This document shows positions 21,244 through 51,657 of a stretch of DNA of 52,206 nucleotides, piece by piece. The stretch is from assembly GCA_021780195.1 (NCBI GenBank), contig JAJXZE010000019.1, positions 1 through 52,206 on the forward strand. The letters run 5' to 3'. This DNA comes from a bacterium. GTDB lineage: Bacteria > Patescibacteriota > Minisyncoccia > UBA6257 > 2-01-FULL-56-20. A model generated the notes under the pieces. It saw nothing but the letters and a program-made list of their open reading frames with translations. It was not told the origin of the DNA and did no database searches. Within the stretch, counting starts at the first letter, position 1; each line of letters opens with the position of its first letter. The position numbers and the translations under genes were made by a program.

Positions 21244-21330
21244 GGAGGGTTGGCAGAGTGGTCTAACGCGCCGCACTCGAAATGCGGTTGGGGAGAAATC
21301 CCCTCACAGGTTCGAATCCTGTACCCTCCG
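21244..21330 (+). tRNA. tRNA-Ser (CGA)
   Basis: GGAGGGTTGGCAGAGTGGTCTAACGCGCCGCACTCGAAATGCGG + long variable arm + CACAGGTTCGAATCCTGTACCCTCCG. Confidence 0.95.
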
Positions 21331-21344
21331 CAGAGTAATTCGAT

Positions 21345-21566
21345 TTTTATTTCCCCCACGAGCGGCCACGCTTCGCGTGGCGCAAAATCTAGCTTTCCCT
21401 CGCCGAGCCGGAAGTTCGAACCAATCTTTTCGGCGAATTCCCGTATGGATTTGTTATCATCGCTTTTTGCCAAAGTGGAGGCCGATTCCGCTTGCTTTAT
21501 GAACTGTATGGCAGGTTCGAACCATGAAACGCCTTTTCGCTCAAAAGCGACTTTGCAAGAAGCCAT
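21345..21566 (-). pseudogene. Degraded C-terminal remnant of a large serine recombinase abutting tRNA-Ser(CGA)
   Basis: FIKQAESASTLAKSDDNKSIREFAEKIGSNFRLGEGKLDFAP aligns by eye with AKTILSQGDKAQIRAFLKNIGSNFILNSKRLDFSA of the 30721 recombinase. Confidence 0.65.
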
Positions 21567-28581: not shown

Positions 28582-29049
28582 CTATATGCCCATAGTCACA
28601 TTTTCCTTCAACCTTGGGTCTAATTCATCTTTAAGGTGGTATTTTTCGACAATCTCATTCAAAACATCGCCCTCACTTTTTTCATCCTCAAATGAATTAT
28701 AATTATCTAATATTTCTTCTCCGACTTGAATATCTTTAATAGCGACTGTAATAACTTCTTCCTCGTTATCTCTGTATTCAGAAAGAACGTTCGGGTTTTC
28801 AGAATGATTAAAAAACTTCCCGTCATCGGAAGAAAAGCAATACAATTTACTTTTCTTACTTCTCCAGGAATATTTATAAATATAGATTTGCAATGCTTCT
28901 GGGAAAGCCAGGATCTGTTCGCGGGTAAATTTTAGATCAAATCCCGACGTGAATCTCCATATTTCAGTTCCTTTGGAAATAAACTGATCAGCAAAAAGAC
29001 CAAGGCCGTGAATTTTACTTTCTTTAACTTTTGTCTTTACTAACATCAT
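28582..29049 (-). CDS. SET-domain protein (putative protein lysine methyltransferase)
   Basis: SKIHGLGLFADQFISKGTEI; KFFNHSENPNV; AIKDIQVGEEILDNYNS. Confidence 0.92.
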   Translation of the reverse strand: MMLVKTKVKESKIHGLGLFADQFISKGTEIWRFTSGFDLKFTREQILAFPEALQIYIYKYSWRSKKSKLYCFSSDDGKFFNHSENPNVLSEYRDNEEEVITVAIKDIQVGEEILDNYNSFEDEKSEGDVLNEIVEKYHLKDELDPRLKENVTMGI

Positions 29050-29150: not shown

Positions 29151-29256
29151 GCGGTGTCTGCTTGAAAATATCCGAACTGAGCTGACTGGGCTTGGCGGTC
29201 GGAATTCCCCCCGCGCCTCCCTTCCGCCCGCCTCGCTTTGAAATGGAGCGGAAAGG
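29151..29256. repeat. Inverted repeat P, left copy (106 bp)
   Basis: Perfect reverse complement of 30508-30613. Confidence 0.95.
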
Positions 29257-29284
29257 ACGATTTCAAGTTTTTCTTTAACGGTTT

Positions 29285-30154
29285 TTATTCCAAATCGCTT
29301 TTGCCGATGTTGCATTTAGAGCAAAGCGTTTGTAGATTTTCTAAAACAGTCTCGCCACCATTCATCCACGCCTTGATATGGTCAACGTGTAGGATGATAG
29401 TCGGGTCGGTCGCGGGCGATCTTCCACAATTTTTACATTTGAAATTATCTCGTCTCATTACTATAAAACGAAGTCGCCAATTTATATTTCTTTGAGTTTT
29501 GTGGCGGGTTATTTTCTCGGTTTTCAAATTTGAATTAGTCTGAATCGGAGCTTTCTCTTCAATCAATAATTCCGTTTCACCTTCGTTCATATACTGGACA
29601 AAAGTTTCAAGAGCTTTGCGCCAAGAACCAAATCTATAGTCATATGCACCGACAGAATATTTTGAAAAAGGTTTTTCAATTTCGGCATAATTCGGTTGGC
29701 GTCCAAGCTTCGTCCAAACTTCTTCAAGATTTTTAAAATATTCTTCGTCGGTTATACCCAGCGTTCTCGTTTTTTCTAACCCCGCTTTTTCAAGAGCTTT
29801 AAACCACGACCCGAAAGCTCTGACGAATGGGCCAGAATCATATCTTCCAAGTGCGGCGTACTCATTAAGGGTAACGGAGTTTTTATTCAAGCTAGTTGCG
29901 ACACTCTTTAAATCTGCTAAAAGTTCATCGTCGCCGAGCTTTGGGTTTTTCCGTATTCGCAGACCCGCCATCCCCATCGCTTTCGTCCAAGAGCCAAACC
30001 TTCTTTGAATTGTCGAGGGGTCATATTTGCCGTACTTTCCATATTCTTCCGTGCTAAGCGAATCAAGTTTTAACTCTGTCGCAACCCTGCGTAGGTCAGA
30101 TAAAAAATCATCACTGGAGACATTGCGATTATATGGCTTCAGTTCAAATTTCAT
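29285..30154 (-). CDS. HNH endonuclease with three homing-endonuclease-associated (HNH_repeat) units
   Basis: Repeats ...EYGKYGKYDPSTIQRRFGSWTKAMGMAGL / EYAALGRYDSGPFVRAFGSWFKALEKAGL / ...YDYRFGSWRKALETF; HNH CKNCGRSP...HVDHIKAWMNGGETVLENLQTLCSKCN. Confidence 0.93.
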   Translation of the reverse strand: MKFELKPYNRNVSSDDFLSDLRRVATELKLDSLSTEEYGKYGKYDPSTIQRRFGSWTKAMGMAGLRIRKNPKLGDDELLADLKSVATSLNKNSVTLNEYAALGRYDSGPFVRAFGSWFKALEKAGLEKTRTLGITDEEYFKNLEEVWTKLGRQPNYAEIEKPFSKYSVGAYDYRFGSWRKALETFVQYMNEGETELLIEEKAPIQTNSNLKTEKITRHKTQRNINWRLRFIVMRRDNFKCKNCGRSPATDPTIILHVDHIKAWMNGGETVLENLQTLCSKCNIGKSDLE

Positions 30155-30158
30155 AAAA

Positions 30159-30356
30159 TTATTTCACTAATTCTTCCATCGAAACGCCTAACGCCTTGGC
30201 GATCTTGGCGACGGTTTGAACACTTGGCTTTACGACTACATTACTCTCAATCTTAGTAAGGGTAGTGTGCTTCACGCCCGACTTCCTTACCAAATCATCT
30301 TGGGTTAGACCAAGCTTATTGCGCGCCTTTTTGATGTTCTCGCCAACCGTTGCCAT
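30159..30356 (-). CDS. XRE-family HTH regulator
   Basis: IKKARNKLGLTQDDLVRKSGVKHTTLTKIESN. Confidence 0.95.
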   Translation of the reverse strand: MATVGENIKKARNKLGLTQDDLVRKSGVKHTTLTKIESNVVVKPSVQTVAKIAKALGVSMEELVK

Positions 30357-30507
30357 AGTTTCAATACTTTGATATCATTATTCGTATAATGTACGATAAC
30401 AATATTATGATAGCAAAATTATTCTTTTGCCTCAATTCGAGGAAAAGCCCGCTTCTGGCCTCCATAAAGTTCGAGTCGACATTTTTGACGGGTTCTTTGG
30501 CGGTTTG

Positions 30508-30613
30508 CCTTTCCGCTCCATTTCAAAGCGAGGCGGGCGGAAGGGAGGCGCGGGGGGAATTCCGACCGCCAAGCCCAGTCAGCTCAGTTCGGATATTTTC
30601 AAGCAGACACCGC
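30508..30613. repeat. Inverted repeat P, right copy (106 bp)
   Basis: Perfect reverse complement of 29151-29256. Confidence 0.95.
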
Positions 30614-30692
30614 CAGTTGGGAAATGGGTTGCCCGCTATGCGGGCTTGCCAGCCGTTGTGTGCCGAAAAATCGAGCCGTTTTGAATTCAGTA
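30608..30692. repeat. Inverted repeat B, left copy (85 bp)
   Basis: Perfect reverse complement of 32078-32162; overlaps P by the CACCGC core. Confidence 0.95.
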
Positions 30693-30720
30693 AGGCCAGA
30701 AGCGGGCTTTTCTCAATCCT

Positions 30721-32169
30721 ATGAAATATTTTATCTATACCAGAAAATCAACCGAGAGCGAGGAAAGGCAGGTGATGTCCCTCGAATCACAGCTGAACGA
30801 GCTGAAAGAATTTGCTGTCAAAGAAAAACTTGAAATCGTCGCTTCGCTTAGCGAAGCACAAACCGCCAAAGAACCAGGGCGAAAGGTTTTTGCAGAAATG
30901 CTTGATCGGATTTGCGCGGGAGAAGCCGACGGAGTTTTGGCTTGGCATCCCGACCGATTAGCTCGTAATTCGATAGACGGCGGAAAGATTATCTACCTGC
31001 TGGACACAGGAAAAATCAAAGACCTCAAATTTCCGACGTTTTGGTTCGACAGCACGCCGCAGGGAAAATTTATGCTAAACATCGCCTTTGGGCAGAGCAA
31101 ATACTATGTGGATAATTTGAGCGAGAATATCAAGCGAGGCCACCGCCAAAAACTGCGGAAAGGAATTTGGCCTGGCTTCGCCCCGCTCGGCTATTTAAAC
31201 AATTCAAAGACAAGGGCGATTGATGTTGATGGCGAAAGAGCGCCAATTATCAGAAAAGCTTTTGAGCTATATGCGACTGGCGAATATACCCTAAAAGCCC
31301 TTGCTAGGATTTTGGATCAAGCGGGGCTAAGAAGCCATAAGGACAACATTCTTGTGGTTGCCTGTGTCCAGCGACTTTTGAAAAACCCTTTTTACTATGG
31401 AATTTTCCGCTTCAACGGTGAGCTGTACGAAGGAAGCCACGAGCCAATTATTTCTAAAAAACTTTTTGATTCCGCTCAGCAAGTGATGGCGAATCGCGGC
31501 AAGAAGAAGCGAAAGCGAAAACACGACTTCGCTTTTTCGGGATTCATGAAATGCGGAAAGTGTGGTTGCCTCATCACCGCCGAGACACAGAAGGGTTATG
31601 TGTATTATCGTTGCACCAAGAAAAAGCAGACCTGCGGCGAGAAGTATCTGCGGGAAGAACTGCTTATTGAACAAATGAAGTCCATTATTCAAAAAGTTTC
31701 CATTCCCGACAACTGGGCAAAAAATATGCTCGACGAGCTAGACTGCGAGAAGGAGAGTATCCAAAACGAGGGCATTTCTTTTGTCCAAAATCTGAAATCT
31801 CAGAAAGCGGAAATTGAGCAGAAAATGGACCGCTTGCTCGATGTCTACCTTGAGGGCAGAGGTATATCGTCTGACGAGTATCAGACCAAAAAAGTGAAAT
31901 TACTCAACGAGAAAGCTGACCTAGAGCAAGAAATCAGAGATTTTGGGCAAAATGGAAATAATCGGCTCGAACCGATACGGGAGGTTATTTTATTGAGTAG
32001 CCAAGCTAAAACTATTTTATCGCAGGGCGACAAAGCGCAAATCCGCGCATTTCTCAAAAATATCGGCTCGAACTTTATACTGAATTCAAAACGGCTCGAT
32101 TTTTCGGCACACAACGGCTGGCAAGCCCGCATAGCGGGCAACCCATTTCCCAACTGGCGGTGGGGGTGA
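30721..32169 (+). CDS. Large serine recombinase (resolvase + recombinase + zinc ribbon)
   Basis: MKYFIYTRKSTESEERQVMSLESQ; WHPDRLARNSIDGG; CGKCGCLITAETQKGYVYYRCTKK. Confidence 0.97.
   Translation: MKYFIYTRKSTESEERQVMSLESQLNELKEFAVKEKLEIVASLSEAQTAKEPGRKVFAEMLDRICAGEADGVLAWHPDRLARNSIDGGKIIYLLDTGKIKDLKFPTFWFDSTPQGKFMLNIAFGQSKYYVDNLSENIKRGHRQKLRKGIWPGFAPLGYLNNSKTRAIDVDGERAPIIRKAFELYATGEYTLKALARILDQAGLRSHKDNILVVACVQRLLKNPFYYGIFRFNGELYEGSHEPIISKKLFDSAQQVMANRGKKKRKRKHDFAFSGFMKCGKCGCLITAETQKGYVYYRCTKKKQTCGEKYLREELLIEQMKSIIQKVSIPDNWAKNMLDELDCEKESIQNEGISFVQNLKSQKAEIEQKMDRLLDVYLEGRGISSDEYQTKKVKLLNEKADLEQEIRDFGQNGNNRLEPIREVILLSSQAKTILSQGDKAQIRAFLKNIGSNFILNSKRLDFSAHNGWQARIAGNPFPNWRWG
32078..32162. repeat. 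Inverted repeat B, right copy (85 bp), covers recombinase C-terminus and tRNA 3' end
   Basis: Perfect reverse complement of 30608-30692. Confidence 0.95.
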
Positions 32170-32244
32170 GATTCGAACTCACGATGCGGTTTCCCGCATA
32201 ATGGTTTTCAAGACCATCGCCTTCAGCCTCTCGGCCACCCCACC
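32155..32244 (-). tRNA. tRNA-Ser (TGA), CCA encoded
   Basis: GGTGGGGTGGCCGAGAGGCTGAAGGCGATGGTCTTGAAAACCATTATGCGGGAAACCGCATCGTGAGTTCGAATCTCACCCCCACCGCCA. Confidence 0.95.
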
Positions 32245-50028: not shown

Positions 50029-51657
50029 TCAGTACTCGAGCGGGGCAACGTTCGCCTTCGTGTTGCCGCCACCTCCCGACGTTGCGCCGGCGCCACCGCC
50101 GCCCGACGACATGGTCGACGTCGGCACGAAAGGCGCGAAGTAGATACTCCCCTGTACCGAGGCCGGACCCACGATGCCGTTCACGTCCTGCGCCGCCAAC
50201 ATTGTTTCAAAATCGGTCGGTTTGGGCTCTTTTGCGATAAGCGCAAAGACCGGTTTGTATTGTAAATCCTGCACGATTCGATTATGTAGCGAAAAGTTCC
50301 ATAGTAAATCTTGGAGTAGTTCCCGTTTTTCGTCCGGCTCGCCGTCGAGGTAGTCGTTTTGTGCGGAAATGCCTTGTAAAAAGTAATTTTTTATCGGTTC
50401 CAGAGTTGCAAGCTGCTCGTCGGATTTTCCTTGTATCTTTTTAATTTCGGCCTTAACGGCAACCGCTTCGTTCGTAAGCGCCCTCATTTTCGCCGTATAA
50501 ATCGCCTCAGGGGTGATTTCGGCAGCGAAGCTGTCCGCAAGCTTGGATTGCGCCGTCTCGATTTGCCGGAGGCGATTTTCAAGCGATGCGACGGATGACG
50601 CCGCGTAATGGTTCTCATGGGCGAGCCGTTCCTTCGCCGCTTGATAGGCGAGCTCAATGAGATCGGGGTCGCATTGTAATAGTCCGAGCATATTGCCGAT
50701 GACACCATCGAGAAATTCGGAGCGCATATAAACATGATGCTGGTCGCAGACACGCTTTCCGTTCGTGCAGAAATAATAATCGTGGCCCTTGCGCTTGCTT
50801 GCCGTGATTGCGCATCCGCACTTAGCGCATTTCAAAAATCCGCGTAGATGGAAAAATCTTTTTTGCTGTCGACCGTGCTGTTTGCCGTCGAGGACGGCGT
50901 TCGCGGTATCGTAGAGTTCTTTGGAGATGAGCGGTGTATGATTGCCCTGATAATATTTTCCATTGCGGAACATCACGCCCATGTAGAATGGATCGCGAAT
51001 GACGCGATGGATGAACCCCTTGTTCACTTTCGTGCCGGAGCGGGAACGCAATCCTTTCACATAAAAAGCATCGGAAATTTCTTTCAAGCTGATGCCGCCT
51101 TGTGCGTACATTTCAAAGATGCGCGGAATAAAAGGTGCTATTTTTTCGTCGATGTAAAGCGTCTTGGTCGCTTTATCATTGATATAGCCGAACGGCGCAT
51201 GGTTCGGCCACCCGCCGTGCTCAAGCTTCGCCCGGTTGCCGCGCTTCACGTTCACGGAGAGATCGTCGACATATTTTTTGGCGATGCCGAAATCAAGCGT
51301 CATCATAAACTTGTCGTCCGAGGTGTTATGAAAAAATTTTTCCGGCGTGCGGATTTCTTTGATAAAACCTTTATCCATGAGCTCGATTGTAAGGCCGCCA
51401 TCAACCATGTTGCGGGCGATGCGGTCCGGTTTCCAAACGAGAAGCACACACTCGTCGGATTTTTGAATGTACGCGAGCATCTCGTTAAAGATCGGGCGGC
51501 CGGAAGATTTGGCCGATTTCGATTCCTTGAAAATCTTGGTTATTGAAAAGCCATCGCGTTCAGCAATGCGTTGCAGTTCCGCCTCTTGCGAGTCGATGGA
51601 TAAGACTTGCCGATCTTCGGCTTCGGTCGATTTTCTGCAATATGCTATGTATTTCAT
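50029..51657 (-). CDS. Large serine recombinase with an unrelated Gly-rich C-terminal tail
   Basis: MKYIAYCRKSTEAEDRQVLSIDSQ; WKPDRIARNMVDGG; CAKCGCAITASKRKGHDYYFCTNGK; tail DVNGIVGPASVQGSIYFAPFVPTSTMSSGGGGAGATSGGGGNTKANVAPLEY. Confidence 0.96.
   Translation of the reverse strand: MKYIAYCRKSTEAEDRQVLSIDSQEAELQRIAERDGFSITKIFKESKSAKSSGRPIFNEMLAYIQKSDECVLLVWKPDRIARNMVDGGLTIELMDKGFIKEIRTPEKFFHNTSDDKFMMTLDFGIAKKYVDDLSVNVKRGNRAKLEHGGWPNHAPFGYINDKATKTLYIDEKIAPFIPRIFEMYAQGGISLKEISDAFYVKGLRSRSGTKVNKGFIHRVIRDPFYMGVMFRNGKYYQGNHTPLISKELYDTANAVLDGKQHGRQQKRFFHLRGFLKCAKCGCAITASKRKGHDYYFCTNGKRVCDQHHVYMRSEFLDGVIGNMLGLLQCDPDLIELAYQAAKERLAHENHYAASSVASLENRLRQIETAQSKLADSFAAEITPEAIYTAKMRALTNEAVAVKAEIKKIQGKSDEQLATLEPIKNYFLQGISAQNDYLDGEPDEKRELLQDLLWNFSLHNRIVQDLQYKPVFALIAKEPKPTDFETMLAAQDVNGIVGPASVQGSIYFAPFVPTSTMSSGGGGAGATSGGGGNTKANVAPLEY

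Follow-up and report, generated by a model that had tools for sequence, protein, structure and literature searches.

Several described recombination systems resemble in part the locus reported here. Archaeal integrases of the SSV1 and pTN3 types are tyrosine recombinases whose attP lies inside the integrase gene, and their elements carry no second intact attP. Flp of the yeast 2-micron plasmid is likewise a tyrosine recombinase, and the plasmid is a eukaryotic replicon that does not integrate. In SCC elements, large serine recombinases (Ccr) move variable cargo at a fixed chromosomal site, rlmH; to our knowledge, no SCC carries an intact inverted attP or internal inverted repeats of comparable length. 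Integrative elements and satellites found at tRNA 3' ends commonly use tyrosine integrases and lack a layout with two inverted repeats. In serine integrase systems, the zinc-domain motif of attP half-sites is displaced by 5 bp relative to that of attB half-sites (PMC3783163). Our search of the literature on mobile elements of Patescibacteria (CPR) found no serine-integrase island with two inverted attP sites and returned other elements only.

The DNA analyzed here (the window, 52,206 nt) comes from a member of the Patescibacteriota (Minisyncoccia; UBA6257; 2-01-FULL-56-20) and covers positions 1-52,206 of the forward strand of contig JAJXZE010000019.1, which is contig C13 in an assembly (GCA_021780195.1) totalling 701 kb in 20 contigs. 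It holds an element of 3.0 kb that is laid out as tRNA, B-recombinase-B', P'-cargo-P and flank, with a single short core in common. T designates the tRNA half-site and A the flank; M is the attP copy found inside the element, and E the copy that would lie between the 3' ends in an excised circle. The features are as follows.

32155-32244, minus strand: target tRNA-Ser(tga), whose 3' end is the T half of attL (ARAGORN; Rfam tRNA)
32157-32162, minus strand: attL core CACCGC at the T/B junction, read from the sequence
32078-32162, minus strand: B arm, tRNA-side copy, a 100% inverted repeat; the plus strand codes for recombinase codons 454 onward
30721-32169, plus strand: large serine recombinase, 482 aa as integrated (ORF, Pfam)
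30508-30692, plus strand: M, an intact attP (P/CACCGC/B) opposite in orientation to the end sites; the recombinase and XRE genes start on either side of it and diverge
30608-30692, plus strand: B arm, M copy (inverted repeat)
30508-30613, plus strand: P arm, M copy (inverted repeat); read on the minus strand, it codes for the native recombinase tail CLLENIRTEL...
30159-30356, minus strand: XRE/Cro-C1 HTH regulator, 65 aa (Pfam HTH_3)
29285-30154, minus strand: HNH endonuclease, variable cargo, with three homing-endonuclease-associated repeats (Pfam HNH, HNH_repeat)
29151-29256, minus strand: P arm, distal copy, ending in attR (P/A; inverted repeat)
29151-29156, minus strand: attR core at the P/A junction, read from the sequence
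29157-29243, plus strand: orphaned native recombinase C-terminal tail, which would be in frame with the recombinase only once E re-forms in the circle

Both repeat pairs, the P arms of 106 bp and the B arms of 85 bp, are 100% identical in inverted orientation, far beyond chance, and they have the hexamer CACCGC in common, found at the two ends and, on the plus strand, at 30608-30613. The P arms have no other occurrence in the whole window assembly, and an Rfam scan of the element retrieved the tRNA only, all other matches being below the gathering score. One end of the element abuts the 3' end of the tRNA, and the core is common to both ends. An earlier sequence-only reading had described these repeats, with coordinates and identity that our analysis confirmed, and interpreted the locus as a recombinase element integrated at a tRNA 3' end, with attL (T/B), attR (P/A) and an intact inverted attP (P/B). 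We uphold this interpretation because of a 5-nt offset between half-sites, the recurrence of the layout in independent assemblies and in an isolate, and a collinear unoccupied locus in a relative. In most measurable elements, the GTTCG(A) T-loop box of the tRNA half begins 18 nt ahead of the core, and the P half has a similar GTTCG that begins 23 nt ahead of it. Since the box is 5 nt farther from the core in the P half, P/B is assigned as attP and the tRNA end as attB. The offset concerns the P/T side only and not the B/A side; in the exceptions, the script had picked another box or the T side was the P half of another element.

The search for relatives compared the recombinase with whole-genome and GTDB sets, and a script examined 130 recombinase places, a few genomes being represented twice. 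B-type inverted repeats surround the recombinase gene at 82 of these 130 places (40 to about 300 bp, mostly 90-100% identical), and at 62 of these 82 a tRNA 3' end lies directly at the outer B arm. Complete elements, with a second repeat pair P that has a short core in common with B, were found at about 20 loci, a few of which are the same genome twice; a further one (L083) proved complete once more flank had been fetched, and one is carried by the isolate Schleiferia thermophila DSM 21410. Complete relatives measure about 2.6-9 kb. The family is widespread, mostly in tiny genomes of the Patescibacteria type, and its targets are chiefly tRNA-Ser and tRNA-Gln, also tRNA-Trp, -Leu, -Ala, -Glu and others. 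Recombinases flanked by inverted repeats fall inside a single clade (99% support, 105 rows), and outgroup members lie near tRNAs without repeats. Viral contigs yielded one truncated match, and plasmids only distant recombinases with under 60% identity. At L100, no P partner was present within about 17 kb and the arms look decayed. A contig considered as a possible circular form with an intact attP (L117, G026:C13) was rejected, as it has no terminal overlap and its gene is a rearranged relic.

Several observations concern the surroundings of these elements. The recombinase segments of L046, L048 and L049/L232, assigned to Nitrospirota, Patescibacteria and the Bacteroidota isolate Schleiferia thermophila, are 98-99.6% identical, which may reflect either a recent inter-phylum transfer or, for the metagenome bins, misbinning. 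L145 has elements at neighbouring tRNA genes. In L143, and probably also in L036 and L123, the T position is occupied by the P half of another element, which suggests tandem arrays. In the window, at 21244-21545, tRNA-Ser(cga) precedes the remains of a recombinase C-terminus (residues 408-468), probably a decayed related insertion. Moreover, a second large serine recombinase (50215-51657, 36% identical) belongs to the clade without inverted repeats.

The sequence-only reading also predicted that relatives would contain the corresponding empty site. For one family member, a collinear unoccupied locus exists in a sister species; the T/A site of the window's own element was not found. In the former case (G026), one contig closes with murF and tRNA-Glu(ctc), and another opens with P/A followed by tpiA. 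In the sister species (G032), murF, tRNA-Glu(ctc) and tpiA are collinear without any recombinase or repeats, and about 1.2 kb of other sequence separates the tRNA from tpiA. For the exact empty sites of other elements, a DNA search in their genera matched the tRNA side partly, and the flank was not conserved. A SET-domain protein (28582-29049) adjoins attR in the window; its relatives elsewhere are not beside tRNAs, and used as a synteny anchor for the window site it led to no tRNA near these relatives.

The recombinase has the Resolvase, Recombinase and Zn_ribbon_recom domains (Pfam, above cut-off) of a large serine recombinase. In the integrated state its frame passes through the B arm and then into the tRNA gene, so that its last residues are tRNA-antisense; since the stop codon (32167-32169) sits inside the tRNA gene, the ORF does not end within the element. 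In continuity with the P half, the arrangement expected in the circle, the frame is open and leads into a conserved tail, for example WRCLFEKIRTDFAQN or WLCLLNKIRTFFQ.NPD. This native tail, of the pattern …IRTFF.ENPD-stop, is encoded by the P half of attP. Over the first 39 nt across E, the recombinase frame has no in-frame stop in 62 of 65 elements (stops in 3/65), and the other two frames contain stops in 33/65 and 36/65. Diversity in the tail is lowest at the second codon position (0.35), higher at the first (0.44) and highest at the third (0.53). The attP thus encodes the native C-terminus of the recombinase, and integration therefore swaps it. The earlier reading, correct as to the integrated element, had overlooked this part, and a conserved native C-terminus encoded by the attP P half appears, from the sequences compared, to be the new finding here. 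Each insertion would cost the recombinase gene its normal end, which may lock the element in place. Since outgroup recombinases without inverted repeats likewise read into tRNA genes, the tail swap is older than M; judged on these sequences, the swap alone does not account for M.

The cargo of the window element consists of the Cro/C1-type XRE regulator and the HNH protein with its three HNH_repeat units (Pfam), for which PADLOC gave a weak REase_II match. In the family, an XRE gene usually comes first and the remainder is variable, including a P-type ATPase, a UvrA-like ABC protein, methyltransferases, a TdeIII-type restriction enzyme, a GDSL hydrolase, a sodium/solute symporter and an Hsp70-like protein. 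No replication gene was recognized in the cargos searched. The Schleiferia cargo (L232:3261-4414) contains an IS3-like transposase gene pair, identified by eye, beside a truncated AAA/OLD-like gene. The edges of the cargo also hold short islands copied from the element's own recombinase segment, in the window as follows.

29256-29279, minus strand: N1, a copy of recombinase nt 96-119, abutting the P arm
30491-30507, minus strand: N2, a copy of recombinase nt 138-154, abutting the P arm
30464-30488, minus strand: X3', a copy of recombinase nt 1333-1357, which border the B arm in the recombinase segment
30442-30461, minus strand: X5', a copy of 30693-30712, the leader bordering the other B arm on its inner side

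About a dozen relatives carry such copies of 17-38 nt at fixed positions: N1, which reaches nt 119 of the gene, and N2, which begins at nt 137, beside the P arms, then X3' and X5'. In the close clade, synonymous conservation of the source stretches is 0.96 for N1 and 0.92 for X3', among the highest in the gene, versus 0.61 overall. In more distant elements, the islands are absent or undetected.

Taken together, we propose, with a probability of roughly 0.7, that the locus is a tRNA-targeting serine-recombinase integrative element whose circle carries two inverted attP sites, whose recombinase tail is swapped at E, and in which M provides a spare copy of the native end. What the DNA shows directly is how the element is laid out, that this layout recurs, how its attachment sites are related, that the tail is conserved as coding sequence and that orientation is biased; from these we infer a circle, a consequence of the tail swap for activity and a function for M. 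The two copies of attP (P/core/B) would separate, in the excised circle, the recombinase segment from the segment with XRE and cargo. Copy E, between the 3' ends, would recombine with the tRNA 3' end to give T/B ... P/A, and copy M, between the divergent 5' ends, would be left intact inside the element and inverted. Integration at E would detach the native tail, tRNA-antisense codons taking its place; this loss might limit the integrated enzyme, and integration would then probably be self-limiting. M could serve as a spare native 3' end, as a control region between the divergent genes, or as both. The native tail would be kept or regained only if the element integrated through M or if its recombinase segment inverted between the B repeats. 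Several points fit this proposal poorly: no circular form was seen, the repeat arms, of 85-409 bp, exceed the length needed for attP, and the recombinase-derived islands are left unaccounted for.

The islands would find a place in an extended version, rather unlikely in our opinion, in which the double inverted attP acts as an integration-state switch: the tRNA-coded tail would be the locked state, the M route or a rare inversion the unlocked one, and the islands cis elements. The perfect inverted repeats might alternatively point to a phase switch in which the recombinase flips both segments between inverted attachment sites, and the sequence-only reading had indeed described two invertible segments. 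As a working property, this was not sustained. Both orientations should be common among relatives of a phase-variable system, but the 3' end of the recombinase gene faces the tRNA in 80 of the 82 loci with a detectable tRNA, and among 21 complete elements about 20 have the cargo genes adjacent to M directed away from it. Rare reversals do exist, of the recombinase in L087 and L096 only (5' end toward the tRNA; both end at contig breaks, the native tail there being unconfirmed) and of the cargo in L153. In addition, the near-identical copies of Schleiferia, the Nitrospirota bin and the Patescibacteria bin have their two slightly different B arms (93.6-93.8% identity) in the same places. Since orientations are near-fixed and the B arms keep their places, free inversion is unlikely and rare inversion possible. 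According to published rules for serine integrases, only P/B with T/A is productive without a directionality factor, attL with attP and attP with attR being unproductive in the integrases studied, and M should therefore not normally recombine with the element's own ends (PMC3783163); this agrees with the fixed orientation. A phase switch thus appears improbable to us. The 80:2 bias itself requires selection or a functional difference, because equally usable E and M sites would predict a ratio near 1:1.

Several further explanations can be considered. M might be a mere duplicated promoter or operator for divergent control of the recombinase and XRE genes, with gene conversion keeping it identical to E. 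Its constant position between recombinase and cargo, and the direction of the adjacent cargo genes, would fit; however, a complete attP is retained in M and mismatches between arms are fewest near the core (in imperfect B arms, 2.5-3.3% within 45 nt of the core versus 4.3-6.7% at 45-104 nt), so that we hold this explanation to be possible and rather unlikely. An amplification of the 2-micron kind, in which inversion of a circle with two attP sites during replication raises the copy number, would suit the putative circle of two unique segments with identical inverted sites between them and the recombinase gene in one. It seems improbable, given that it requires attP to recombine with attP, which the serine integrases studied do not do, that no replication gene was recognized in the cargos examined, and that no circular or multicopy form was seen. 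Folded single-strand sites serve in recombination for CTX-phi and as integron attC, and a double-stranded attP might similarly arise if the inverted attP copies paired within single-stranded DNA that is imported or transferred. The length of the arms would allow stable stems, the elements are small and lack recognized transfer or replication genes, and ComEC homologues have been reported in Patescibacteria (PMC12102498); but serine integrases cut both strands, so that a folded stem would leave hairpin-ended breaks, and we give such a route little credence. Finally, the frequent location of contig breaks in the arms might suggest an assembly chimera of integrated and excised forms. As identical anatomy recurs in many assemblies from different projects and in an isolate, a one-off chimera is excluded, and artifacts of this kind are hardly credible as an explanation.

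We therefore regard the locus as a genuine integrative element that recurs across genomes, with two attP copies in an unusual layout and a well-supported anatomy, for which the roles of M, of the tail swap and of the islands are proposals. The family is widespread in Patescibacteria, where gene movement is little understood, and its near-identical recombinase segments occur across bins and an isolate assigned to three phyla. Its cargo spans restriction-modification and other defense-type genes, transporters and enzymes. A recombinase that rewrites its own C-terminus, if true, would be a simple means of self-limiting integration, and natural tRNA-targeting integrases with readable attP/attB pairs may serve as tools.

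Compared with known systems, the element resembles the large serine integrases (phiC31, A118/LI, Bxb1) in domain order and in the attP x attB logic, including a distal recognition box displaced by 5 bp in attP relative to attB, which is matched here (PMC3783163). It differs from them in having two inverted attP sites, a tRNA 3'-end target and an attP half that codes for the recombinase C-terminus. As with the SSV1 and pTN3-type integrases, integration disrupts or alters the integrase gene. The 2-micron plasmid is split by a pair of inverted recombination sites into two unique segments, one of which carries the recombinase, as the putative circle here would be; in contrast to it, orientation is biased in this family. 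The movement of variable cargo by a large serine recombinase recalls SCC, and the family is akin to the integrative elements and satellites at tRNA 3' ends in forming islands with variable, often defense-related cargo.
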